A stretch of 22,856 nucleotides of DNA from a virus. The position numbers were made by a program, and so were the translations under genes. Within the stretch, counting starts at the first letter, position 1, and each line of letters begins with the position of its first letter. Of the stretch, positions 4,256-21,991 are shown piece after piece. Under the pieces are notes generated by a model. It was not told where the DNA came from. It ran no database searches and saw only the letters and a list, made by a program, of their open reading frames with translations. The DNA is taken from the IMG/VR virus record IMGVR_UViG_3300025424_000039, positions 1-22,856 of that record; one strand, given 5' to 3'.

Positions 4256-4588
4256 TTACCAACCAGGGCAATCCCAACGTCTCAGCGATGCCTTCGCCCT
4301 TTCAGCATCACCCTTTGAATGTTTCACCACACCTGACATTCTCGCGCAAAATGAATCTTTACGCGAACCGCCTTTGGGCTGTGGTGCTTTCAGATGAGAA
4401 CCCGTCTCTCTGTTGTACTTCTCTCTGCCTTTGGCTGTGAGTCCTGCGCCCTTTTTTGTAGGCAACTTCTCACCGCGTCCAACAGCTAAAGATGGTCCAC
4501 CTTTTTTAAAAGGTACAGTACTATCGCCTCTACTTGTTCCGACACCAGAACCAGAACTTGGAGCAGAACTATAGTTACTTTGTCCCAT
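4256..4588 (-). CDS. Small basic KGG protein, DUF6321-like
   Basis: The product is 110 residues and strongly basic. The N-terminal 25 residues are Ser/Gly-rich, followed by VPFKKGGPSLAVGRGEKL. The core from about residue 44 reads KKGAGLTAKGREKYNRETGS, then LKAPQPKGGSRKDSFCARMS, and ends LRRWDCPGW. This GLTAKGRxKYNRxTG plus SFCARMxG pattern is one I associate with a small phage family of unknown function (I believe DUF6321). The cysteines at residues 81 and 107 recur in that pattern. The upstream Shine-Dalgarno is weak (TTGGTGAAAT before ATG) and overlaps the stop of the preceding gene, so translational coupling is likely. Basic charge and position next to the adaptor suggest a nucleic-acid-associated or packaged protein, which is inference. 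Confidence 0.65.
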   Translation of the reverse strand: MGQSNYSSAPSSGSGVGTSRGDSTVPFKKGGPSLAVGRGEKLPTKKGAGLTAKGREKYNRETGSHLKAPQPKGGSRKDSFCARMSGVVKHSKGDAERAKASLRRWDCPGW

Positions 4589-4591
4589 ATT

Positions 4592-4891
4592 TCACCAACA
4601 TGAGCCTATTGGCCCACCCTTTTTATGTTTTGCAGTCTTTGCAGATGCCTTGAATGCCTCAACAGTAGGTGCTCCCTTAGCTCCGACACGACGCATCTTC
4701 TCGCCAGAACCATGAGCTATACGCTCTTGTTTAGCATGGATGTTGGCATAAAGACCGCCCTTAGACATCTTTTTGCCCTCATCCGCTTTGACAAACTCTT
4801 TGCCGACTTTTTGAGGAACACCGCCGTATCCACCTTTTGTATGAGCGGCGGCTTCCATCAGCCTATGTTGTGCAGGTGATTTGCTAGGCAT
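4592..4891 (-). CDS. Small basic KGG protein made of two phage modules
   Basis: The product is 99 residues if started at the ATG at 4891-4889. An upstream in-frame ATG lies inside the preceding gene, and I reject it because [17 protein letters not shown] is the usual opening of this type of protein and because this ATG sits 1 nt after the previous stop. Residues 1-40 contain [11 protein letters not shown] and [17 protein letters not shown]. Residues 44-93 contain [20 protein letters not shown], then [23 protein letters not shown] and KKGG. I know both halves as separate small phage proteins without function, so this looks like a fusion. Calculated by eye it is very basic. KGG occurs at residues 19-21, 44-46 and 91-93. 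No clear Shine-Dalgarno is visible. Confidence 0.7.
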
Positions 4892-4892
4892 A

Positions 4893-7526
4893 TTAAGCCT
4901 GACTTTCTTGCCAAGATAAACGAGCAAACGCTGTACCGTTTGAGCCAATTTGGCTGACGGTCACATACAAAATGTCTGGGCCATCAGGATAAGTTCCTGC
5001 TTGACTTGTAGGCACTGTGTTGTTTAATCCGCCACCCAAAATACTGTTTCCAAATGGAGCAACAGAAGTCAAATCTAAAGTGGTTTGTCCTGCTGTGTTT
5101 GTAAAAAATGCCGCAATAGACTCACCACCACTAATTGTGGTTGCTGTATTAGTGTTTGTCGCAACTTGCACAATCGATGTTGTGTTGGTGTTATTTTGCG
5201 TTGGAGATGCAAATGAAGTAAATCCACTTGTTCCACCAATAACACCATTCAAAATAAATTGAACCAAGTAACTTGTTGTGGTCAACATAGCAATCTCACG
5301 CATTTGCAATTGCAAGCGATTGATAATCTCTTTGACACCTAAAGTACCAACTGTACCGTTATCCACAGAAGGAGCTACTCGAATGGCCATAATTGGCACA
5401 GCGGTTGAGCTTGATGTAGATACAGCCGAAGTCATACCGTAGTTATAAATAGCTGATACATCACTTGTATACCCACCATCCATTACTACTGATGAACCCC
5501 AATGAGACAATTGAGCGGCGGCATCAGGAGATGCATATTCAACAGCAATAGGTGCAGTGGCTGAATAAGTGAATGCAGTAGCGGCAGATCCACCTGTACC
5601 GCCACGAGTCACTCCATTCAACGTAGTACTAGTTAAACTAGTATAACTAATGTATTCAATTACGCCAGAAACACCGTTTCCAATGATTCTTGCTGTACCG
5701 CCCGCAGGATTAAATCCATAGGTACTCAATACATTAATTGTTGTATCAGAAACTCCAATATTTGCTGTAATTGTTGTCAAAGGCAATACGTTATTTTGCT
5801 CATAATGTGAAGGCAAATTGCCTGAACGCATGTAAGCTTGATATTGCACGTTGTTGTTTTGGAAACCATACACATAAATGATTTGACCATTTGTTGCACG
5901 GAAACCAAATCGAGCTACACCCGCACCGTACCAAGAGTAGTCGATGTAAAACATCTGTACTCTAGTCAAGTCAAGGTTATATCCAGAAGGATTAGAAATA
6001 GAGTTTGATCCGTCGCAAACATCCCACCATTGTGATTGAGGAATTTTTACCTCAACAATACGGGATACCAATGCATTTGCAATTGTTGATCCACGATATT
6101 CAGGAGTAACGTACAACTGTGTGTCGCTAGTGATTGTTGTTACACGGTGTGTTTGACCACGAATAACAATGTAATCTCCAACTACCAATTGAGTTGTAAA
6201 TTGTGTTTGACTTCCAGTTACCAAAGAACTGGTTTGTGTAGCTGTTACTGTTCCAGTAATTTGGTTGACGCTGTTGCGAAGAACACAATACAAAGTTTGT
6301 CCATCAAATTGGAAAAACATACCGTTTTGGCTGTCAAAAAATCCAATTTTGTTGCTACCGCCGTACCATGAATATGGACTAACGTGAGGAATCAACGGTG
6401 CTGTACTTGTTGCAGGAGACGCTGTTGGCGCACTCAAAGCAGTGTAAGTAAACGTCAAAGCATTGGCAACGCTTGTAATTTTGAAAGTTCCGTTATATCC
6501 AGACTGATCAAAACCAGATACTTGGACATAAGTATTTACAGTCAAATTGTGAGGAGTTTTGCTCGTTACAGTAACTGTCGTACCAGACGAAGTTATGGTT
6601 GTAAATGCAATCTGTGGCTTGAGAATTGTTCCAGTAGAAAACTGAATGCCCTTACCTGATTGGTAACGGAAATAACGTCTAGTTTGACGGAACAACTGCT
6701 GGTTAGGAACAGATGTTCCTGCAGTAAAGTTAACAGAACCATCGTAGGCATGGCAATCAACCCAACCTACAGGACGTGCATACAAGTTTGATTGACCTGC
6801 GGTGTTTGCAATTGTCGTAGATGGAGTTCCATTTACATTGGTAAATGTAAAGGTATTTGCTGTAGGCGTAGTTGCAACTACCTGAGCACCATTGATCTGA
6901 GTTGCAGTCGATGGTCCAGTTGTTCCTGTAATAAAAATTGCAGAATTGACTGACAAACCATGTGGGAATTGAGTGGTAACAGTTACTGTAGAACCGCTAA
7001 AAGTGAAAGCGGTAGTTCCTGTTAATGCAATACCGCAATTAGAGTATGTGTAACCTTGATAACAGTATGTTGTTGTTGCAGAATAGTTGTTAACTGTAGT
7101 TACTGCATTGGCGACTTGCACAGTAATTGAAGTGCCAGCACTTACGCCTGCAACCACATATGCCCAGCCTGATGCGTTGGGATCAATTGTGTCTTCAATG
7201 AATAAAGGGGTTCCAGTTGCAATTGTTACATTTGATGAAAATGTAATAACCAACTGATAAGTATTTGCTTGATTACCTGTAATAGCAGATACAGGCAAAG
7301 CCGCGTTAGCTAAATAATACAGAGATTGACGGTTGTTTTGCAGGGAAACTTGTTCCCATTTGGTAGGCTGTTGACCATACTCAAAGTCAGTATCAATCAA
7401 AGACTGAGGGGTTGATACACGAACTTTATCAACAGGATCATATGCACCAGAGCGTTGCGCTTGCTGAAGACGCAATTGATTGTCGGTATTTGACGTTGGG
7501 CCTGTGTAAACAGAAAGTTGCGACAT
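4893..7526 (-). CDS. Large beta-rich virion structural protein
   Basis: The product is 877 residues from the ATG at 7526, chosen because AAAGGA lies 8 nt upstream. A start 13 codons earlier would fall inside the preceding hairpin. The conserved-looking framework includes [20 protein letters not shown] (29-48), [17 protein letters not shown] (284-300), [16 protein letters not shown] (404-419), and [20 protein letters not shown] (521-540) followed by [12 protein letters not shown]. This pattern occurs in large virion proteins of other phages, often in the tail or neck. Spliced into it are beta modules at about 173-230 and 306-362 (FCCH-like: [20 protein letters not shown] and [20 protein letters not shown]), and at 585-645 ([12 protein letters not shown] to [10 protein letters not shown]). 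The exact place in the virion is unknown to me. The DNA carries a third copy of the intergenic palindrome at 5627-5643. Confidence 0.7.
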
Positions 7527-7574: not shown

Positions 7575-9179
7575 TTACCTACTTCTCAATGAGCCACCAC
7601 GCTTTTTGGGTGGCGCAACAGTAACTGATTTTTCAGTTTTTGTTACGCTACCCTCTGGAGGCTTGGAAGAAGAAAACATGCTCTTAACAGCATCATAGGC
7701 GCGCTTTGGGGCACCTAAAACTGCATTGCGCATTGCTTCGTTTTCTTTCTTCTCGTCTGCATAATGAGCGTCATATGCACCTTTGGAAAGGTCTTCTGTA
7801 CCGCCATCTGCAAACCTTACCTTGCCACCTCTTTTGAACGTGCCAGATTGCAAGCTGTTGGCCACGGGTTGGCTCACGAAATGCTTGGGCATAGCCACTG
7901 GCTTACCCATTGCATTTACATTACCCCCCGTGGCGTAGGCTTTTTTTGTGGCATGTCCTCCACGCTTGAAACCACCCGCATTGGCAAGCTTTACTTCACC
8001 AGTTTTGGTGCCTGTTTTGCCTTTAGGAGTTGTATCAGCAGGACGATTTTCCCAATTTCCGCCTTCAACTGTGTCGCGTGTCTCGTACTTGTCGATAGCG
8101 CCGCCATCAGCTTTGTGATGCATATGGTGAGCTTTACCACCACGCTTAAAACCGCCTGCATTACCCATTTTGACGCCACCAGTGGTCTTTGAACCACTGA
8201 ATGGACGTGAGCTATGCATGTCGGTGTTTTCATAGTAATGCTCGTTGTCTTCAATAGTTCCACCCATTTCTGTTTTACCACGAGTTTCGCTCTCGTTGGT
8301 TTCACTAGGAATAGAACTACCAGTTGCACGACCACCCTTGGCAAAATGATGTTTTGCTTTTCCACCATGTTTGAAGCCACCTGCATTGCCTAATTTGACA
8401 ACGCCAGTTTTTCCACTGGTATGATCTGCATGCTCGCCATCATACATTTTGGTTTTTGCAAATTTCTTTGCATTGCCTTCAATAGTAGTTTTGGTTTCTG
8501 CGCTATCAATCTCGCCACCAGAAGCATAGCTACCACCTTTGCACATGGCTTTGTGATGCTCATGCATCTTCTTGTGATGCGCAGAGCCACCTTCTTTGTG
8601 CATCTTGGCATGGTGTTTAGCCATGTGCTTGTGATGCTCCAAAGAACCTTCAGGATGACCGCTCACGCGATGTACCTTGCCGCCATGCTTCAAGCCGTGA
8701 TGTGCTTTAGAAGCTTTCATGCCTTCATGATGCTTGAGTTCTTTCTCAATCTTATGCATTTCGGCCATTTCTGCTTTGTGAGCAGAACCGCCTTTTGCGT
8801 ACATCATTTGTTTGCCCATGCCTGCCATTTTGTTACCCATAGCGGCTTTTTTAGCGGCCATTGCAGGTTTTGCCATAGCAAGAGGATTCTTCATCATTGC
8901 ACCGCCCATGCCTTTATGAGCCACTTTGCCGCCTTTAGCGTACAAATTGGGGTTCATGGCTTTACGGCGCTCAGACATAGAAGGCTTTTTAGGAGATTTT
9001 CCTGCCTCTGACTCAAACGCATGATGCATTCCACCCATAGCATGATGTTGCATGTTCTTGTGACCATGCTCTTCGTGCTCTTTGTGGTGCTTGGCTTTAA
9101 CTTTTCCACCTTTTTTGAGCTTCAGTGATACTGAAGGCTCATCGGTGTACATTTTCACCATTGGTTTAAAACTAGACAT
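7575..9179 (-). CDS. His/Lys/Met/Gly-rich KGG repeat protein
   Basis: The product is 534 residues, extremely basic, and very rich in His, Lys, Gly and Met. Residues 1-220 are a low-complexity His/Lys region with units such as LYAKGGKVAHKG, YAKGGSAHKAEMAEMHK and KEGGSAHHKKMHEHHKA. Residues about 221-283, 284-360 and 361-419 form three imperfect repeats. Each has an acidic/polar half (for example YETRDTVEGG) and ends in a near-constant block VKLGNAGGFKRGGKA followed by a KGG or DGG. A fourth, degenerate copy is SGTFKRGGKVRFADGG (445-460). The C-terminus is Lys/Pro-rich. A strong Shine-Dalgarno (AGGAGG) lies 5 nt before the ATG. The gene sits between two virion genes, so a packaged DNA-binding or metal-binding protein is a reasonable guess. 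I recognise no domain, and the resemblance to bacterial KGG stress-repeat proteins is limited to the motif. Confidence 0.7.
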   Translation of the reverse strand: MSSFKPMVKMYTDEPSVSLKLKKGGKVKAKHHKEHEEHGHKNMQHHAMGGMHHAFESEAGKSPKKPSMSERRKAMNPNLYAKGGKVAHKGMGGAMMKNPLAMAKPAMAAKKAAMGNKMAGMGKQMMYAKGGSAHKAEMAEMHKIEKELKHHEGMKASKAHHGLKHGGKVHRVSGHPEGSLEHHKHMAKHHAKMHKEGGSAHHKKMHEHHKAMCKGGSYASGGEIDSAETKTTIEGNAKKFAKTKMYDGEHADHTSGKTGVVKLGNAGGFKHGGKAKHHFAKGGRATGSSIPSETNESETRGKTEMGGTIEDNEHYYENTDMHSSRPFSGSKTTGGVKMGNAGGFKRGGKAHHMHHKADGGAIDKYETRDTVEGGNWENRPADTTPKGKTGTKTGEVKLANAGGFKRGGHATKKAYATGGNVNAMGKPVAMPKHFVSQPVANSLQSGTFKRGGKVRFADGGTEDLSKGAYDAHYADEKKENEAMRNAVLGAPKRAYDAVKSMFSSSKPPEGSVTKTEKSVTVAPPKKRGGSLRSR

Positions 9180-13586: not shown

Positions 13587-14039
13587 CTAAACGTAAGCTT
13601 TAAACGATAACGGATCGTCAGTGACGGCCGAAATCAGTTCGTGATCATTGATTGTCATGAATAAAACGGGATCTTCACCGTCTTCAGTAGGAACTTTGCG
13701 CTCCCAACGGTCTCCACCCCACCTTGGAACCCTTACATAGTCACCAATTTCAGCCCATGAGCCTTCAGCCCACGGTTGCATGGTGTCTCGGTTCTTGAAC
13801 GCGAGTGGGCCAATTGCCACGACCTTACCGATCATGTTGTTCCACTTTTCGTTTTCTTTGGTTTCATCAACAATGATGATCATTCCAGACTTCTTTTTGA
13901 TTCGTCGAAGTTGGACAATCACTCGACCGCCGAAGGGGCGTTGCCCTGGGCTTACTTCAGGAAAGGCCCAAGCTAATTCATCAGCATTGGGCGTTCCGCT
14001 ACTTCCCTCGATTGTGGGAATAGGCTTGCTTTCAGTCAT
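13587..14039 (-). CDS. GroES-like co-chaperonin
   Basis: The product is 150 residues against about 97 for bacterial GroES. Residues 1-35 are an extra N-terminal segment. The GroES-like barrel starts at FGGRVIVQLRRIKKK (36-50), followed by the equivalent of the mobile loop with the hydrophobic GMIII (52-56), and then NMIGKVVAIGP (68-78). The sequence resumes with IGDYVRVPRWGGDR (98-111), matching the VGDRVLF strand and roof-loop region, and ends VLFMTINDHELISAV, like the canonical INxxDILAV end. It would cap host GroEL and help fold capsid or other phage proteins, as T4 gp31 does for gp23. Location just before the scaffold and capsid genes supports this. The Shine-Dalgarno AAGGA lies 5 nt before the ATG. 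Binding to GroEL is inferred, not shown. Confidence 0.75.
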   Translation of the reverse strand: MTESKPIPTIEGSSGTPNADELAWAFPEVSPGQRPFGGRVIVQLRRIKKKSGMIIIVDETKENEKWNNMIGKVVAIGPLAFKNRDTMQPWAEGSWAEIGDYVRVPRWGGDRWERKVPTEDGEDPVLFMTINDHELISAVTDDPLSFKAYV

Positions 14040-14272: not shown

Positions 14273-14436
14273 TTCTTCTTACTAGCGTGTGATAGTCCGC
14301 CAGATTTAGAGCCAGAAGATGAAGATTTACTTCCACCTTTTGGTTCCATCGCTGTGCCATCAAGCTTCTCGCCTTGAGCGATACGCTTGTGTTGGGGCAC
14401 ATTAGCGGTTCTCTGTTCGTAATCAGATGTTGCCAT
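14269..14436 (-). CDS. Small KGG/Ser-rich protein overlapping the portal end
   Basis: The product is 55 residues. The ATG at 14436-14434 lies within the last codons of the portal gene, overlapping it by 14 nt in another frame. AAGGAG sits 6 nt upstream, still inside the portal gene, which strongly supports translation. The first half is mixed (MATSDYEQRTANVPQHKRIA), while the second half is low-complexity Ser/Gly/Lys (PKGGSKSSSSGSKSGGLSHA, then KKK). It carries the KGG motif seen in several other proteins of this cluster. Function is unknown; the basic, flexible tail suggests interaction with DNA or acidic head proteins, but that is only a guess. Confidence 0.65.
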   Translation of the reverse strand: MATSDYEQRTANVPQHKRIAQGEKLDGTAMEPKGGSKSSSSGSKSGGLSHASKKK

Positions 14437-16882
14437 TTGGAGCTCCTTGTTCAGGGGTTACGGGAGCGGCGGGTGCCGCAGGAATCGCAGGCGGTTGGGC
14501 CTGCGCTTGAGCTTGAGCCACCGTTTGAATGGTCTCATGCGTCAACTTTGCGTTTTCAATCTGAATCTTCGTCTGATTGTCAATCGCGTGTTCTTGCATA
14601 TCCTTTTGCAACTTGGCTTGTGCAATTTGGAAGTCTTGCTGATCTTTCTGTGTCTTACGTTGTGTCTCAGCAGTGCTTGTGTCTTTAACGACTTGTGCAT
14701 CAGGTGGTAAAGGTGCAGGCCCTTTGCCTTGCTGTGACATCTGTACAAGCTTTTGAAACGCAGGTGTAAATTGACCAAACACTTGTTGTGTATCGATCAT
14801 CACATGCGCGCCAATCGTCGTGTATATCTTGTCGATGGTAGGCGTGTAATTGGGGTCGTCATAGTCGTCCACAGGCTTGCCTGTTGCGTCCTCAACGTAT
14901 CCGTTTGACCTATTGATGTACCACAGCGTCATGTGCTGTTTAATGTGCTCAATGAGGTTATTCAAATAGTTGGGGTCTGCGAATGGAGATTGGCCAAAGA
15001 ATGGATTCAGTCCAAACTGCAAATGGTCTTGGATGTGCGCAATGTGGTCTTGCTGTACATACGCATATGCAGTTTGACCTAACAACATGGCCGCGTTCTC
15101 ATCCGCTGATGTACGCTGTTCAGGCGCGGGCACGTCCACCATGATCTGCTCAATGTTGGGTATTTTCATTTGCTTGAGCAAACGAGCCAACACCGCACTC
15201 ATCTTGAATTGATCAGGGTGTTGTTGTGCCAGACTCAATACCGCTTGGTTCTGAGCCATGCGTTGTGTCTCAGAGAAAATGTTGGGGTCTGATACTGGCT
15301 CAACGTCCGTGTTGCGAGCAAAGTCTTCACGGGTAACTTCAAGGTCAGATACGTCCTCACCCTTTTGCATGTCGTCAAAGTACCAACGATTCAATCGGCA
15401 AAGAATCTTCAACACCCTAGCTTGCGATGCATGCAAGCGAGCATGGATGGATGAATAAACGTGTGAACCTTGCTCAATCAAAGCTTGCGTAGTGCCCACA
15501 GGCATCTGAGAAGTGGCATCTGCTATCTTCTCCTCGGCCGTGGTCACAACGGAGCTTGTAGCCTTATCCAAGAAGCCTAATAGCTCAAATAGCACAGGGC
15601 TTGGTGGGTTAAAGGGCATGGGCATGGCGATTTGACGGATGTCTTGAACCCCTGGTGCGCCCTCAATCTCCACTACTTGAGTAACGTCGATTTGTTGGCT
15701 CTGCCCACTAATCTTGGCTCCTTTAAGCTTGAGCATTGTGGCCGCGTTATTGATGTGGGCTGAGTCCAAGAGCGCACGAAGCGAGCCAGTGAGGGCGGCG
15801 GACAATCCACCAATGAGATGAGGGAGACCAATCGCATATGCACCCCTCCAAGGGATAAACTTAAACTCAACCACCCAATCCAACTTGGACATGGTTTCAT
15901 CGCTCTCTTCCCAGTTGCGATAGATGCCTAGACATTCATTGTCTAATTCATCAATCATGAAGATGTAGGGAGCGCTCTTACCGTGCGTTTCCTTGTCGTC
16001 TTCCAACTCTAACCATGTGTAGATATGGTATACCTTGCGCAGTCCATCTTTATTGGTTTCAAACTGCTTACCCTCGATCTTGTTGTTGGCCTTGGCAACT
16101 TTGCCTTCTTCCATGTTCTCGGTGGCTTGAACATAGTTGATGTCGCGGTACATGCCAGAAGCAATCCGTCGATCCATCTCATACTGAGTGATCTCATGCA
16201 CTTCAGCCGCACGTTGTGCCGTGTAGAAGTTAGTCGCCGCAAAAGGCAGAATCACGCGATCAATCGGCAAGAACTCAATGCAAGGACGCTTCTTGTCTTC
16301 GTCGTACCACAGCTTCATGTATTGTGAGCCACCCAAAGGCAACTGAGTCAACAACTGCTCTAGCTCATCCCTGAACTCACCCATTTGCTCGGTGATCTGC
16401 CAGTTAAGGAAGTCAACCTTACGGTCAGCAATGGCCGACTTCAGGTCGTCTTGCTTCCCGATGATTTTTGACTTAACGGGCCCATCGGATGGGAAGAGCT
16501 CTTTAATGGCGCGAGCGGCAAAGTCAACACAGCCTTCTGCCATTGCAGGGTGAACAACTTTGGATGCGCCCATGAAGGTTGCACCCCCAGGTGCATCATT
16601 CCCCATTCCTGTGCGCTTGATTCCTTCTTCATACTGCTTGTCCCTCAGTTCACGAGCTTCTTTGTCAGACTCAAGTAGATCACGGTATCTAGAAACTAAA
16701 TCACTAACAACACTTGGGCTAATTGAATCAGCTAAGTTGTCATAGAAGTCAGGATTGAACTCAGGGCCATCGTCGATTTGTATGACCGCTGAACCATCTG
16801 GCAATTCATCGACATCCATCTCTGGCATGTCCACAACAGCAGATCCGTCTTCTTGTTCGTCAATGTTGATATCTTCTGCCAT
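14423..16882 (-). CDS. Portal protein
   Basis: The product is 819 residues, the large portal size usual in podovirus-like phages. Residues 1-38 are acidic and contain the DGSA motif twice (EDGSAVVDMPE and PDGSAVIQIDD). The body shows portal-like features: SRYRDLLESDKEARELRDKQ in the first helical region, PLGGSQYMKLWYDEDKKRPC, FLPIDRVILPF, KFIPWRGAYAIGLPHLIGGL and then a stem and crown region (TSSVVTTAEEKIADATSQMP, VGTTQALIEQGSHVYSSIHA). The last 120 residues form a Gln/Ala-rich coiled coil (DFQIAQAKLQKDMQEHAIDN) ending in a Pro/Ala tail. Twelve copies would form the DNA channel at one capsid vertex, where terminase docks and the adaptor binds. The Shine-Dalgarno AAGGA overlaps the upstream stop. 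The next gene starts inside its last codons. Confidence 0.88.
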   Translation of the reverse strand: MAEDINIDEQEDGSAVVDMPEMDVDELPDGSAVIQIDDGPEFNPDFYDNLADSISPSVVSDLVSRYRDLLESDKEARELRDKQYEEGIKRTGMGNDAPGGATFMGASKVVHPAMAEGCVDFAARAIKELFPSDGPVKSKIIGKQDDLKSAIADRKVDFLNWQITEQMGEFRDELEQLLTQLPLGGSQYMKLWYDEDKKRPCIEFLPIDRVILPFAATNFYTAQRAAEVHEITQYEMDRRIASGMYRDINYVQATENMEEGKVAKANNKIEGKQFETNKDGLRKVYHIYTWLELEDDKETHGKSAPYIFMIDELDNECLGIYRNWEESDETMSKLDWVVEFKFIPWRGAYAIGLPHLIGGLSAALTGSLRALLDSAHINNAATMLKLKGAKISGQSQQIDVTQVVEIEGAPGVQDIRQIAMPMPFNPPSPVLFELLGFLDKATSSVVTTAEEKIADATSQMPVGTTQALIEQGSHVYSSIHARLHASQARVLKILCRLNRWYFDDMQKGEDVSDLEVTREDFARNTDVEPVSDPNIFSETQRMAQNQAVLSLAQQHPDQFKMSAVLARLLKQMKIPNIEQIMVDVPAPEQRTSADENAAMLLGQTAYAYVQQDHIAHIQDHLQFGLNPFFGQSPFADPNYLNNLIEHIKQHMTLWYINRSNGYVEDATGKPVDDYDDPNYTPTIDKIYTTIGAHVMIDTQQVFGQFTPAFQKLVQMSQQGKGPAPLPPDAQVVKDTSTAETQRKTQKDQQDFQIAQAKLQKDMQEHAIDNQTKIQIENAKLTHETIQTVAQAQAQAQPPAIPAAPAAPVTPEQGAPNGNI

Positions 16883-16891
16883 TATCTATCC

Positions 16892-19726
16892 TTATTCTTT
16901 AGTTGCTCGGCGCTTTGCAAGATGGTGCTGTGAAGCAAAATTTGTTTCAGGGAATGCATTGAAGTCATCGTTATAGTCCAATTGCTTCAATGATGAATGT
17001 ACAGCTCCACCAGTAGCCCATGTTTTCTTAACCATCTTCATGGGTTCAGGTGCAACATACTCTTTGCCCCTTGCAAATTCTTGAGCCAATGGTGGATCAA
17101 TCTCATACTCGCCATTATTTTTCTTGGCGTATTCTAAGTGCGTTGGGTTTACATCATGCGTAAACGATGAATGATGTTCATGATTAGGCGTGGACTCTGT
17201 TGGAGTCGTCATCAAAATCAAGCCTGCACGCTTACCATTTTTAGTCTTAAATTGCTTGCTTCGTTGAATCTTTTTGTCCAACTCTTTGTTGTCTAAGAAT
17301 CGTGAGTCCGTAGGAATCATGTGGGGCGTACCATCATTGTTCGTACCCACTTGAACTAGCCTTGGATGCAATATGTGTTGCTTTTGATAGTCGTAACGGT
17401 TATCTCCTATGACCATATGTCCATAATGAGATTTATCAGGGGTTGTGGGTTTTCCTTTGCCATCGTAATGGCCTTCACTACCCTCGTCCTTTTCCATCTC
17501 TGTAAGCTCGTTTAGTGGCCTTGGGATTGACCAATACTTAGCATGCGTGATGGTGTTCTGCATTTCTTTGTCGAATGGTGAGCCACGCTTCACATTGGTC
17601 ACCATGTATGAGTTCTTAGGTGGCGTCTTGTTGCCTTGCTCATTGACAAAGTCACCTTGATTGTCTCTAGCCAAAATCGTATTACGGACTCTTGCTTTGT
17701 CGCGCTTGATACTTTCAGTAATTTCTTTTCCATGTTTGGTCTTTGGGCCAACATTGGAATGGGTCACATGGTAATGATTTTCAGGATCGTGCAACTCATT
17801 AGTCTTACCATAGCTGTTGGCAATAATTGGTGGTTTGTCTTCTTTCTTGCGTTGTTCATTTAATCCACGCAATACATGACGTGATGATGTATCGCTTTCA
17901 TCCACCACATTGGGTCTGAACAATAAACGCTGATTGTTCTGATCGGCTTCATCAGCGGCTTCACGCAATGAGCCAGTATGAGCCAGAACCCAATTGCGAG
18001 TCATAGCAGGGTCATGCTTGGCTTGCGCATGAGCGGCGCGACGTACTGCCGCGTTGACGTATTGTGATTCAGCATTGGGGGCAAAGCATGAGCCACGTTT
18101 GGTATCCACGATTCCATTCTGATCAATGCCTCCACCACACCCATCAACTTGTCCAGGGCATGTATTCAACACATGCAACTTTTCATTCTTGCCATCGCCA
18201 GATGAATACAGCGCATGGCCTGCAATACCCTTGGCCGCATAACCCACATGAGTACGTCCTTGGTCATCGGTCTCATGGCGCACTGTATCAAGCTTCTCGC
18301 TTTCATCCAATGTGTTTGCCTTAGATCCAATGTGCTTGGCTTCGCGCAATCTTTCTAAAGCTTCTTTTTCGGCTTTTGTTTGCTCATCAATTGGTTTGGC
18401 AAAGTGATCGCTCAATACTTGCTTGTGAATTCTGCCCATCTGTCCAATGTTTAACGGTGGACGATTTTCTGATCCATAAACTTTAGCTCTGGCTTTGTTT
18501 AGATCAAGCAGTCCTTCAACTTTCTGTCCTGCTTTAGGCCCAGTACCACCATAGGTTTTACCTTCCAACATGTGACGTGGAATAACAATACCCTTGATGC
18601 CATTTGGCCCTGTGGCTTCCACCAGAATACGCTTAGACTCTTCTGCTTTTTCTTTCTGGCTTCCACCTTTAGCAAAGTGGTGAATAGATCCACCCTTGGC
18701 CATATTAGGAGTCATGGGTGGCTTGATGGCGCTCATGGCTTGGCCTTGAGGCGTTAGGTTCAAGATATTGCTTGGACTTTGTGGAGCTCCAGAACCTGCA
18801 GGCGCCATGCTTGGGAATGGGCTTTGTTGACCTTGTGGTGGCTGTTGTGGTTGCTGTGGTTGTTGGGGCATGAATTGTGTGCCCGCCATCATTGGGTTGA
18901 CATCTACGCCACCAATAGGCAAAGGGCCCTTTGGTGTTTTAACTCCACCCACATCAGGCAATCCAGATGAATTGGGATTGGGGTTAACAAACATCTTTGG
19001 ATCGATGTCCACGGCTTCATTGACGCCGATGTTGTTCATCACTGCGGGGTTGCTATGGCGGGCAACCTCAAGGCGCATTTGGGCTAATGTGGGTTCTGAT
19101 TGTGGTTGCATGGAGCCTCCAGTTGCTTTGTGTTTTATTTCACCGCCCCTTGCGGCAAGTAAATCGTTTTCATGAACTCTATGTGGATCAAATGCGGCAA
19201 ACCTTGATCTAATCACTGATGGGTCAGGGAACATATGCTGTGTCTGCATTCCACCAATGTCCGACATGTCATTGATTTGCAGACGGTCATATCCATGATG
19301 AGGCAGTTGTTCTTCCATGCGACGAGTCTTTGGCATGCCAGTGGCTTTTGCCATATTCTCTCTGAACCATCCTCCTGAGTGCGGATCATCTGGGTGAAGA
19401 TCAGACACTGTGAGCTTTTTACCTCGAGCAACTATCGGCAATACATTAGGAGCCGCATTCCCCGTTCTACGTTCACCAGTTGCATACATATCGGCAATCT
19501 CTGGGTCTTCAGTGGCATATGTTCCTGCACCATATCGTGGATGCTTTTCAAATGCGGGGAAGTCGCTGTTTGTGCCATGATAAAGCTTTTCGTTTAAGTC
19601 AAAACCAAGAGCTCGAGCACGATCTTCAGCCGTATTATGTTCATGCAAGCCCAATGTTTTAATGGCATTGAGACGAGCCTGCTCATGGGCATGTGAATGG
19701 GGATGTTTGGGCTTATGTTTGCTCAT
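16892..19726 (-). CDS. Polyvalent-type protein: ART-like domain plus GP88-like Cys domain
   Basis: The product is 944 residues. Residues about 45-190 look like an ADP-ribosyltransferase domain of phage polyvalent proteins: LYHGTNSDFPAF with H50, GAGTYATEDPEIADMYATG with Y70, and a closing VIRSRFAAFDP (171-181). A third catalytic residue is not certain. Residues 205-355 are a Pro/Gln-rich linker (QQPQQPQQPP). Residues about 365-665 contain NTCPGQVDGC with C523 and C530, SCFA with C547, and RPNVVDESDTSSRHVLRGLN. This recalls the TCPG-xx-C-xxx-C(Y/F)A signature of GP88-like phage proteins. The remainder has His-rich parts (NHEHHSSFTHDVN). Gly-Gly motifs mark the linkers (194-204, 344-355, 906-907). 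Between terminase and portal genes it may be packaged and injected to modify host targets. The best Shine-Dalgarno (AGGA) is 10 nt from the ATG. Confidence 0.72.
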   Translation of the reverse strand: MSKHKPKHPHSHAHEQARLNAIKTLGLHEHNTAEDRARALGFDLNEKLYHGTNSDFPAFEKHPRYGAGTYATEDPEIADMYATGERRTGNAAPNVLPIVARGKKLTVSDLHPDDPHSGGWFRENMAKATGMPKTRRMEEQLPHHGYDRLQINDMSDIGGMQTQHMFPDPSVIRSRFAAFDPHRVHENDLLAARGGEIKHKATGGSMQPQSEPTLAQMRLEVARHSNPAVMNNIGVNEAVDIDPKMFVNPNPNSSGLPDVGGVKTPKGPLPIGGVDVNPMMAGTQFMPQQPQQPQQPPQGQQSPFPSMAPAGSGAPQSPSNILNLTPQGQAMSAIKPPMTPNMAKGGSIHHFAKGGSQKEKAEESKRILVEATGPNGIKGIVIPRHMLEGKTYGGTGPKAGQKVEGLLDLNKARAKVYGSENRPPLNIGQMGRIHKQVLSDHFAKPIDEQTKAEKEALERLREAKHIGSKANTLDESEKLDTVRHETDDQGRTHVGYAAKGIAGHALYSSGDGKNEKLHVLNTCPGQVDGCGGGIDQNGIVDTKRGSCFAPNAESQYVNAAVRRAAHAQAKHDPAMTRNWVLAHTGSLREAADEADQNNQRLLFRPNVVDESDTSSRHVLRGLNEQRKKEDKPPIIANSYGKTNELHDPENHYHVTHSNVGPKTKHGKEITESIKRDKARVRNTILARDNQGDFVNEQGNKTPPKNSYMVTNVKRGSPFDKEMQNTITHAKYWSIPRPLNELTEMEKDEGSEGHYDGKGKPTTPDKSHYGHMVIGDNRYDYQKQHILHPRLVQVGTNNDGTPHMIPTDSRFLDNKELDKKIQRSKQFKTKNGKRAGLILMTTPTESTPNHEHHSSFTHDVNPTHLEYAKKNNGEYEIDPPLAQEFARGKEYVAPEPMKMVKKTWATGGAVHSSLKQLDYNDDFNAFPETNFASQHHLAKRRATKE

Positions 19727-19767: not shown

Positions 19768-19977
19768 TCACCTTGACAGAGCCCCATGCTCGCGCAACTC
19801 CTCTTGCCTCTTTCTCCATCTGATCCATTCTCTGAACATCTGCACTGCTTGCTGTTCCCACACTTCGTTCCTTGGGGTCGCTGACAGCTCAAACTTATGG
19901 TCAGACAAAGTGATTCGCGTTCCGTCAATGTGGAGGACTTTCCTATAACAATCGTCTTGATGATCTCGGCCATTCAT
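19768..19977 (-). CDS. Small unknown basic protein
   Basis: The product is 69 residues, starting MNGRDHQDDCYRKVLHIDGT. I chose the ATG at 19977 because AGAGG lies 5-6 nt upstream. A GTG two codons earlier would overlap that ribosome-binding site. The second half is rich in Glu, Arg and Trp (VWEQQAVQMFREWIRWRKRQ) and should form an amphipathic basic helix. A second open frame of similar length overlaps this one (19734-19973) but has a poorer composition. The gene follows the palindromic repeat patch behind TerL and precedes the 944-residue protein. A small regulator that binds the repeats, or a partner of the large protein, is conceivable, but no motif shows it. Confidence 0.55.
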   Translation of the reverse strand: MNGRDHQDDCYRKVLHIDGTRITLSDHKFELSATPRNEVWEQQAVQMFREWIRWRKRQEELREHGALSR

Positions 19978-19991
19978 TTTCACCTCTTAAT

Positions 19992-20047
19992 ACTAATTGA
20001 TTACTAGTTAAACTAGTAAAACTAATTGATTACTAGTTAAACTAGTA
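19992..20047. repeat. Two 27-bp direct repeats, each with an inner palindrome
   Basis: Copies at 19992-20018 and 20021-20047 are identical over 27 bp and separated by two A residues. Each contains TACTAGTTAAACTAGTA, a 7-bp inverted repeat around TAA with two SpeI-type ACTAGT hexamers. The outer ends of the patch (AATACTA at 19989-19995, TAGTATT at 20043-20049) are also complementary. The patch lies 3 nt after the TerL stop and just before the Shine-Dalgarno of the 69-residue gene. An operator or promoter region, an RNA hairpin pair, or a recombination scar are all possible. Confidence 0.85.
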
Positions 20048-20051
20048 TTCC

Positions 20052-21482
20052 TCACTGCGAGTAGGGGTTTGATCGACCCTTCCTGTTGTAGAGTTCTGCG
20101 TCGTCGATGTCCTCTTGCATAAGCTCTTCACGGGGTGGTGCATCGATGCTGATCCATCCTGCGTCACGCAGGTATCGGAGCCCTTGGCTGATGCAGTCCA
20201 CGAACTCATCGTGTGCGGTCTCAGGAAAGGAGCAGATCTGGCTCACCATGCCTTCAGCCCAGTCACGGACGAAGCCTTTGCGCTTACTGGACTCAGGCAC
20301 CCACACGCGCCCTGCTTTAATGATGTTGGCCACGATGGATAGGCGTTGGACTTTGTCCGCTTTGCCAGGGTTATACGCATGCACAGGCAGATGCGCTCTC
20401 TGTAAGTCTTGTATGAGTGATATGCCTGCGCTCTTGTCCTCCACCAAAACCAAGTCCACAAGCTTCTTGTCCCGTCCTTCGCCAAAGACTGACTCGTACT
20501 CATCGAGCACTTTGGGACGCAGGTCAGGGTATTGGAGGTGCTCTTGCCAACAGTCTAGGATCATCACGGACATACCGCCATCCATAGGCTTAAACACGCC
20601 CATAGTGATCGATCCAGTGGGGTCGTTGTATGTTTTGTCGGACGTGGCGCAGTCATAGCTCTGAATGATGTATTCAAGCTTGGGGAAGGGCTTACCATCA
20701 GGCCAGAGTCGGAACCATGTACGCTTGACGATGCCAGACTCCTCCATGTCGATGAGCTCGGCGTGGATCTCTTGGCGGCCAAGGTTGGTGCCTTCGTACT
20801 GAAGAATCTGCTTCTGGAACGATGGAGCCAGATTGGCAATGTTGGAGTAGGTGGAAGCTTTGGTCACCACCACGTCGTCACCTTCGCGCCCCACCAGATC
20901 AAGGATCAAGTCCTTGGGCTTTGGTGTGGTGGAGCAGATCAGCTTGGTGTGCTTACCCAATCGGATGCCGAATTGGATCATGTCCCATGAGTCTTGGAGG
21001 TATTCCCACGCGGCCAACTCGTCCAACCATCCGCCGTGGAACTGGGGGCCACGGAAACGCTCTGGCTCCGATGCAGGGATGCCTTTGATAAATGAGCCAT
21101 TGACTAGCTTGATCTCGTGAAGGGCTTTGTTGTAGTCGGCCACGAGCTCCTTGGGGATAATGGAAAGCAGGCCAGAATCGCCTTCAAAGCATGTGCCCTT
21201 CACGTCGCCACTGGTAGGGGCCGATACAAGCCATCGGGTGTTGGGTTGATTCCACGCCCATGATGCTAGGGTCTCCGCCGCCGCACGGGTCTTGCCTGCT
21301 CCACGGCCTGCAAGCATGAGCCATATGGCCCACCAATCCCCTGCGGGCTCAATCTGATGCTTGTGCGCTTGGATTTGCCACTTCGCTTGCCAATTAAAAG
21401 CAATCTGATTTGTAGGGGTGAGTTTTTTATACTCTTCAAAAAGAGTTGGTTCGTCATCTAGTATCGCGTCAACGACACTCAT
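20052..21482 (-). CDS. Terminase large subunit
   Basis: The product is 476 residues, a normal length for this family. The N-terminal ATPase has Walker A AGRGAGKT (58-65), SAPTSGDVKG, RFRGPQFHGGWLDELAAWE with Walker B acidic D154-E155, and coupling motif CSTTP (183-187). The C-terminal RNase H-like nuclease shows QSYDCATSD with D277, VLVEDKSAG with E348-D349, and HDEFVDC with D425 and D429 as likely metal ligands. It cuts concatemeric DNA and drives it through the portal into the prohead. The pattern resembles the Terminase_6-type large subunits of Mu-like and gene-transfer-agent-like phages. Start ATG overlaps the small-subunit stop (ATGA), so the two should be made together. All key motifs look intact. 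Confidence 0.95.
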   Translation of the reverse strand: MSVVDAILDDEPTLFEEYKKLTPTNQIAFNWQAKWQIQAHKHQIEPAGDWWAIWLMLAGRGAGKTRAAAETLASWAWNQPNTRWLVSAPTSGDVKGTCFEGDSGLLSIIPKELVADYNKALHEIKLVNGSFIKGIPASEPERFRGPQFHGGWLDELAAWEYLQDSWDMIQFGIRLGKHTKLICSTTPKPKDLILDLVGREGDDVVVTKASTYSNIANLAPSFQKQILQYEGTNLGRQEIHAELIDMEESGIVKRTWFRLWPDGKPFPKLEYIIQSYDCATSDKTYNDPTGSITMGVFKPMDGGMSVMILDCWQEHLQYPDLRPKVLDEYESVFGEGRDKKLVDLVLVEDKSAGISLIQDLQRAHLPVHAYNPGKADKVQRLSIVANIIKAGRVWVPESSKRKGFVRDWAEGMVSQICSFPETAHDEFVDCISQGLRYLRDAGWISIDAPPREELMQEDIDDAELYNRKGRSNPYSQ

Positions 21483-21991
21483 TCAGCTTGCCTTTGCATC
21501 TTGATGGCCTTGAGGAGCTCGCCGAACACGTTCATGTTGTTCTCCACCACCACAGGGCTTGTATCGTCGCCAGAGTGCGTTATGCGCTCGCCATACTTGC
21601 GTGGTCGTTGTTTGGCGGCATTCCACTTCCTTGCGTCAATGCGTTGTCTTTGCCACTGGATGTAAGCCGAATCAAGCTTAACGTCGATCTGGTTGCCGTC
21701 CTTGTCAAACACTGGCGCCGTCTCAGGCGTCTCATCCGCAATGGACACGATTTCGTCAGCATGAGTCTCAGCCTGCTCTTCGCGCGCACGCGTGTAGAGC
21801 TCTAAGAATTCTGGATGATCATGCAACCATGTATAAACTGTTCCGTGACTGGGCATGCTTGGATCCCTACAGATCTGTGCCAAGCTTTCCCCTAATCCTA
21901 GCCTATTGCATAGAACCTTTGCTAGTTCTATGGAGTATCCTGATGGTCTTCCTCTTGGTAGGTAATCTTTAGGATCTTTTCGTTTTGTCAT
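21479..21991 (-). CDS. Terminase small subunit
   Basis: The product is 170 residues. Residues about 13-60 form a helix-turn-helix-like DNA-recognition segment: GRPSGYSIELAKVLCNRLGL, GESLAQICRDPSMPSHGTVY, TWLHDHPEF. This is followed by a helical oligomerisation region (LYTRAREEQAETHADEIVSI) and a basic segment (IQWQRQRIDARKWNAAKQRP, RKYG) as in Sf6/Mu-type small terminases. The C-terminal tail probably contacts the large subunit. It would recognise the packaging site on the phage DNA and load TerL. The Shine-Dalgarno AAAGGA lies 7 nt before the ATG. The gene is 4 nt overlapped with terL, giving the classic terS-terL pair. Confidence 0.9.
   Translation of the reverse strand: MTKRKDPKDYLPRGRPSGYSIELAKVLCNRLGLGESLAQICRDPSMPSHGTVYTWLHDHPEFLELYTRAREEQAETHADEIVSIADETPETAPVFDKDGNQIDVKLDSAYIQWQRQRIDARKWNAAKQRPRKYGERITHSGDDTSPVVVENNMNVFGELLKAIKMQRQAE

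Follow-up and report, generated by a model that had tools for sequence, protein, structure and literature searches.

Near-identical phages swap, as a unit, a cassette at the N terminus of a 944-residue protein (the polyvalent-type protein, PV), and a Pro/Gln-rich linker and a predicted GP88-type core stay in place behind it. In the phage described here the cassette carries a domain like that of ADP-ribosyltransferases (an ART-like domain), and short peptide tags lie at the borders of the exchanged segment. This pattern suggests that the effectors form an interchangeable set that reaches the host at an early stage of infection, and we consider it probable that PV represents a new lineage of the phage polyvalent proteins. 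The original prediction for this DNA had singled out the pairing of an ART-like with a GP88-like domain; cassette exchange and boundary tags were absent from it and are, in our view, the more interesting result.

Gene neighborhood of PV

The window, meaning the whole stretch of DNA that was analyzed, is a 22.9-kb sequence from a freshwater phage, and the record IMGVR_UViG_3300025424_000039 is limited to it. PV is encoded on the minus strand at 16892..19726 by an ORF of 944 codons with an ATG start and without an internal stop, exactly where a chain of this length had been predicted. The neighboring genes for which coordinates are given lie on the same strand. Upstream of PV in transcription order are the small terminase subunit (Sf6 type; 21479..21991) and the large terminase subunit (20052..21482), and 9 bp downstream of PV follows the portal protein (phrog_1216; 14423..16882), after which come a GroES/Cpn10-like protein (13587..14039) and then the capsid protein. 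The predicted location between terminase and portal genes is therefore confirmed, with the addition of a 69-codon ORF (19768..19977) that had gone unmentioned and also lies between the large terminase gene and PV. This ORF is conserved in relatives (approximately 75 homologs among the loci that were fetched) and has no PHROG match. It was considered as the immunity partner of the ART in a toxin/immunity pair, which we rejected because the ORF is kept next to other cassettes too and is not cassette specific. An immunity gene paired with each cassette, as expected of polymorphic toxin systems, was not found at the PV loci. Between the terminase gene and the 69-codon ORF there is an AT-rich tandem repeat with inverted arms (19979..20050; two copies of TAGTTTAACTAGTAATCAATTAGT) that is retained in about 20 close relatives. 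Searches for tRNAs, Rfam RNAs, and promoter or terminator signals gave nothing above chance.

An ART-like domain in the N-terminal cassette

Residues 44 to 180 (19187..19597, minus strand) are predicted to adopt an ART fold whose active site looks intact, so that enzymatic activity may be expected. The Pfam ART-PolyVal model (PF18760) matches residues 47 to 153 with an E value of 1e-4 and 23.6 bits, below its gathering cut-off of 31.2, and because of this score we call the domain ART-like, of the same fold as ART-PolyVal and not a formal member of that family. Sister ART cassettes exceed the cut-off with 55 to 83 bits, and the best ART cassettes elsewhere in the PV family reach an E value of 5e-31. 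A profile built from ART modules of the phage group and searched against the PDB returned 29 weak matches (each with an E value of 0.12 to 0.73), all 29 of them to chains of the ART superfamily. The structural model of the domain is of moderate confidence (pLDDT 70, pTM 0.65); its best PDB fold matches are all ART enzymes, with Foldseek retrieving the catalytic folds of tankyrase, an RES-Xre toxin, and diphtheria toxin at a probability of approximately 0.99 to 1 and a best E value of 1.7e-3.

The candidate catalytic residues are H50 on strand 1, Y70 on strand 2, and D147 on strand 5, which by alignment would fit the H-Y-D triad given for the ARTs of polyvalent proteins (PMC5512222). In an alignment of 21 ART modules of the phage group, every row that spans the position has H50, D147 is present in 21 of 21, and the strand-2 position is mostly aromatic, being occupied by Y, W, or F across the broader set. 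D180 of the FDP motif was set aside as the third catalytic residue, the invariant aspartate being D147, for which an active-site role is suggested by this conservation.

The motifs quoted in the original prediction are all present (YHGT at residues 49-52, GAGTYAT at 66-72, IRSRFAAFDP at 172-181, NTCPG at 521-525, and GSCFA at 545-549), and its ART-like domain, its GP88-like cysteine domain, and its polyvalent-type multidomain chain each find support from Pfam, fold prediction, and the relatives. It had offered two outcomes as evidence against itself, namely folds matching neither ART nor GP88 and loss of the HxT/Y core in homologs; both folds were recovered by modeling, and the conservation of H50 and D147 speaks for retention of the core.

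A GP88-type core with three cysteines

The C-terminal part of PV, approximately residues 356 to 905 (17012..18661, minus strand), is supported as a GP88-type domain by profile matches and structural modeling. The Pfam GP88 model (PF17338) matches residues 495 to 607 with an E value of 2.7e-5, a marginal pass at 24.6 bits against a cut-off of 24.4, and the match spans only profile positions 16 to 106 of 230, less than half of the model. A relative in MW202545 scores 31.0 bits, and L019 and L021, close relatives that have the ART of PV, contain canonical GP88 at E values of 1e-19 to 1e-20. The model of residues 356 to 905 has a pLDDT of 86 and a pTM of 0.84, and in BFVD it matches annotated GP88-domain phage proteins with an E value of 7.7e-10. 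A profile-profile comparison of the core with canonical GP88 gave an E value of 2e-17 that we discarded and do not count as evidence, because the two alignments had row L019 in common; without the shared row the comparison is weak (E = 0.02). Sequence searches of the PDB with whole PV, canonical GP88, and DUF5131 returned no relevant match.

C523, C530, and C547 are the only cysteines in the 944-residue chain and are invariant in 22 relatives, and exactly three cysteines occur in 18 of 22 diverse cores. They form the motif C523-x6-C530-x16-C547 (18086..18160, minus strand), so the predicted NTCPG and GSCFA elements stand and the spacing given with them, NTCPG-x5-C, is corrected. Canonical GP88 has C-x6-C-x3-C as well as collinear R-N..D, Y-K, and N..T.S motifs, and these latter motifs are present in the core of PV. 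The core is like the Pfam family, that of mycobacteriophage L5 gp88, in its three-cysteine site, its collinear motifs, and its predicted fold, and unlike it in its size (approximately 550 residues, with insertions), its cysteine spacing, and its fusion to other domains. Stand-alone GP88 proteins have about 240 residues, and their genes can be located at the early genome end: in several T7-like or pelagiphage genomes they are gene 2 or 3 from the start. In T7-like phages this part of the genome is expressed early and serves takeover of the host. Long GP88-containing phage proteins exist in public databases, where they have gone undiscussed. An independent fusion is found in Tunturiibacter phage Tunturi_5, where a protein annotated as minor head protein (5398..6732 of that locus) joins an inorganic pyrophosphatase-type domain to GP88.

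Cassette exchange between near-identical phages

In DNA alignments of the window with L004, L005, L007, L008, L010, L011, and L030, homology breaks at residues 2-7 and again at 195-211, delimiting an exchangeable cassette of approximately residues 5 to 197 (19136..19714, minus strand). In L004, L005, L007, L010, and L030, DNA identity to the window is 93% to 95% up to residues 4-6, the sequence between the breakpoints is unrelated or only distantly related, and identity returns to 88% to 96% from residue 198 or 211 onward. In L008 and L011 this pattern recurs with lower identity, and overall the flanks of exchanged cassettes are 82% to 96% identical on both sides. In L002 and L009 it is the inner part of the ART (residues 44 to 167) that has been exchanged. 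One border of the cassette lies directly behind the start codon, the other at a PTLAQMR/AxGG boundary. The conserved Pro/Gln-rich linker (IGVNEA...GGVD...TPQGQAM; residues 205 to 342; 18701..19114, minus strand) is defined by a segment cluster in 90 loci and by invariant alignment columns. Protein-level breakpoints likewise cluster at residues 182-205 and 338-370, around the AxGG pairs 192/201 and 343/352.

PV carries five AxGG tags, all on the minus strand. Tags 1 (AARGG, residues 192-195; 19142..19153) and 2 (KATGG, 201-204; 19115..19126) lie at the cassette boundary together with the PTLAQMR peptide (212-218; 19073..19093), tags 3 and 4 (MAKGG, 343-346, and FAKGG, 352-355; 18662..18700) at the entry of the GP88 core, and tag 5 (WATGG, 904-907; 17006..17017) at its exit. 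Counting the motif A[KRDENTSQA]GG in 61 nonredundant family members against expectations from shuffles, we found 205 in the variable regions against 15 expected (approximately 14-fold), 56 in the C-tails against 2.9, and 0 in the cores against 11.7. The number of tags grows with N-terminal length (r = 0.78), and for P[ST]xx[QE]M[RK] the same 61 members yield 69 occurrences where 0.12 would be expected. Within the window AxGG is confined to PV (5 against 0.28 expected) and a 534-residue His/Lys-rich late protein (7575..9179, minus strand; 7 against 0.6, or 16 [AK]xGG against 2.8), and was not found in the other structural proteins of the window; the MW202545 counterpart of the latter protein, with 12, shows the same pattern. 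The AxGG and PTxxQMR peptides would be flexible joints that permit exchange, and they may also serve capsid loading or the later release of parts.

A family with varied payloads

Relatives of the core were collected from 163 stretches in viral contigs, 80 of which were kept, plus three contigs from bacterial genomes. The order TerL-PV-portal holds in nearly all fetched loci, with 95% to 100% identity of the capsid protein. Two loci (L094 and L100) encode a PV-related protein 60% to 63% identical to PV beside terminase and portal proteins only about 30% identical, in a different gene order, and therefore the module is mobile across phage groups as well.

N-terminal regions range in length from 17 to 1,388 residues. 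Pfam recognizes ASCH in 19 and ART-PolyVal in 16 of 70 variable regions, along with PcfJ-like, GDSL lipase, GNAT, LPD23, and L5 gp82-like modules; this catalogue is extended by PHROGs with ParB-like domains, and the ARTs are of several types. No single cassette is essential, because some relatives have no recognizable ART cassette or a nearly empty N terminus of 17 to 33 residues. Payload is also found C-terminally in L039, L077, L080, L084, L090, and L096, and as a separate ORF just upstream of PV in L034, L047, and L098; L012-L015 contain two ART modules, and in L022 the linker is kept and GP88 is not detected. A 686-residue protein annotated as a DNA repair protein in MW202573 (3621..5678 of locus L025), encoded between tail adaptor and stabilization genes, has two ART domains and an LPD23-like stretch, and shares the IRSRFAAFDP end of the window's ART. 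The complete genome of the relative MW202545 also encodes Tad2-like anti-Thoeris, SPFH/Band 7, and ketoacyl-synthase-like proteins.

A possible radical-SAM relation of GP88

In several genomes, DUF5131 (Gp37/Gp68) genes score above the cut-off of the Pfam GP88 model, with as much as 28.9 bits, and DUF5131 in turn matches the radical-SAM NCBIfam model rSAM_mob_pairA (TIGR04471) with E values down to 1e-28, below the equivalog cut-off. The loci L121-L133 hold DUF5131 genes that match this radical-SAM model, several of which are also matched by Pfam GP88. DUF5131 (PF07505) shares C-x6-C with the GP88-type core, and the scores together suggest that the DUF5131 and GP88 families are related. This link rests on the broader Pfam GP88 model, since small profiles of GP88 and DUF5131 that we built ourselves do not find each other. 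Searching the PDB with the core fold gave weak TIM-barrel matches that included radical SAM enzymes, none of them significant, and profile comparisons of the GP88 core free of shared rows were weak. PV differs from DUF5131 and rSAM_mob_pairA in its cysteine spacing, its C-x6-C-x16-C is not the CxxxCxxC-type cluster motif of the radical SAM superfamily, and no direct match was found between PV and radical-SAM models. A radical-SAM origin of GP88 is accordingly plausible, by an indirect chain of sequence comparisons.

PV as a probable early-acting polyvalent protein

PV joins at least two unrelated functional domains in one chain, ART-like and GP88 (with further modules in relatives), and is encoded near the head and packaging genes of a portal-terminase phage, as polyvalent proteins are; the two domains in one polyvalent-type chain are supported by sequence matches and models. 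We favor a reading in which PV is expressed late, along with the head genes, is most likely loaded into the capsid, leaves it together with the DNA, and takes effect within minutes of the start of the following infection. The ART cassette would use NAD+ to ADP-ribosylate a host target, and the core with its three-cysteine site would be a second early enzyme or a carrier, possibly of an Fe-S/radical-SAM type. The cassette is exchanged as a unit at the tagged boundaries, with linker and core remaining. Packaging in the virion is argued by analogy: the ART Alt of T4 is packaged, injected with the DNA, and modifies host proteins (PMC5512222), and ART genes beside terminase and portal genes have been described as likely head-packaged (PMC9503650). 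Alt itself belongs to the R-S-E clade of ARTs, whereas the ART of PV would be of the H-Y-D type and is fused to further domains.

Cassettes directed at different host immune systems, and not at a takeover of host transcription or metabolism, would be a variant of this explanation that differs only in the target. Exchange between near-identical phages fits an arms race, MW202545 carries the Tad2-like gene, and antirestriction is known for polyvalent proteins such as DarA/DarB of P1 (PMC5512222); however, Pfam matches no cassette among the 70 variable regions to a known anti-defense family, and we consider a counter-defense role somewhat unlikely. A fuller version of the favored reading is rather improbable: a phage-head system of effectors built for cassette exchange, in which the constant linker and GP88 would be the carrier, GP88 would be a divergent radical-SAM-type enzyme not previously recognized as a virion effector, and AxGG/PTxxQMR would be a standard joint for swapping, duplicating, or moving early effectors within one phage group, and also for loading or release.

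It is unlikely that AxGG marks protease sites at which PV, as a polyprotein, would be cleaved within the capsid or the host to give individual effectors. The tags border the modules and are absent from the core, which would suit such cutting, but AxGG is not known as a prohead-protease site. Nor is there a protease of such specificity among the 25 of 32 Pfam families listed for MW202545. For other polyvalent proteins, autoproteolytic processing into units has been proposed (PMC5512222).

A role for linker and core in head or connector assembly, with the N-terminal domains as nonenzymatic passengers, draws on the invariant position of PV between terminase and portal, on the conservation of core and linker while cassettes change, and on the sharing of AxGG tags with only one other protein, itself late. 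In T7-like phages, however, stand-alone GP88 is encoded at the early genome end and not with the head genes; H and D are retained by many types of ART cassette; and the linker of L022 occurs with no detected GP88, which leaves a structural function distinctly improbable. That PV is a chimeric assembly artefact or a fusion of neighboring genes, as the separate upstream payload ORFs might hint, is rejected as almost certainly wrong because the architectures recur on independent contigs, with L001 repeating the chain at 99% identity, L003 and L029 having the same architecture on other contigs, and L012-L015 and L005-L007 repeating other architectures on separate contigs.

Relation to known systems

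PV resembles the phage polyvalent proteins (Iyer et al. 2017, PMC5512222) as a multidomain chain beside portal and terminase genes with an ART of the H-Y-D clade, and its relatives share their ParB-like, GNAT, and LPD23 modules. What sets the PV family apart is the Pro/Gln-rich linker with its AxGG and PTxxQMR tags, and the whole-cassette exchange between near-identical phages; recombinational variability had been raised only as a possibility, for the cassettes of one kinase group (PMC5512222). The statement in the original prediction that the pairing of ART and GP88 is undescribed stands, because GP88 is absent from the text of both the polyvalent-protein survey (PMC5512222) and the viral ART survey (PMC9503650). 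Polymorphic toxin systems similarly combine a constant carrier with exchangeable effector cassettes and marked boundaries, but in PV exchange is mainly N-terminal, no dedicated immunity gene was found for each cassette, and the setting is that of phage late genes and not of a secretion system.

Polyvalent proteins are regarded as early effectors that enter the host by injection, and the renewal of their contents has so far been guesswork. The PV family provides natural experiments, near-identical phages differing in one cassette at a defined boundary, and GP88, a widespread family without known function, is placed in the setting of early infection and acquires a candidate enzyme class. Elsewhere in the window, two small proteins (4256..4588 and 4592..4948, minus strand) match end pieces of far larger PHROG proteins, which suggests that they may be further movable modules.
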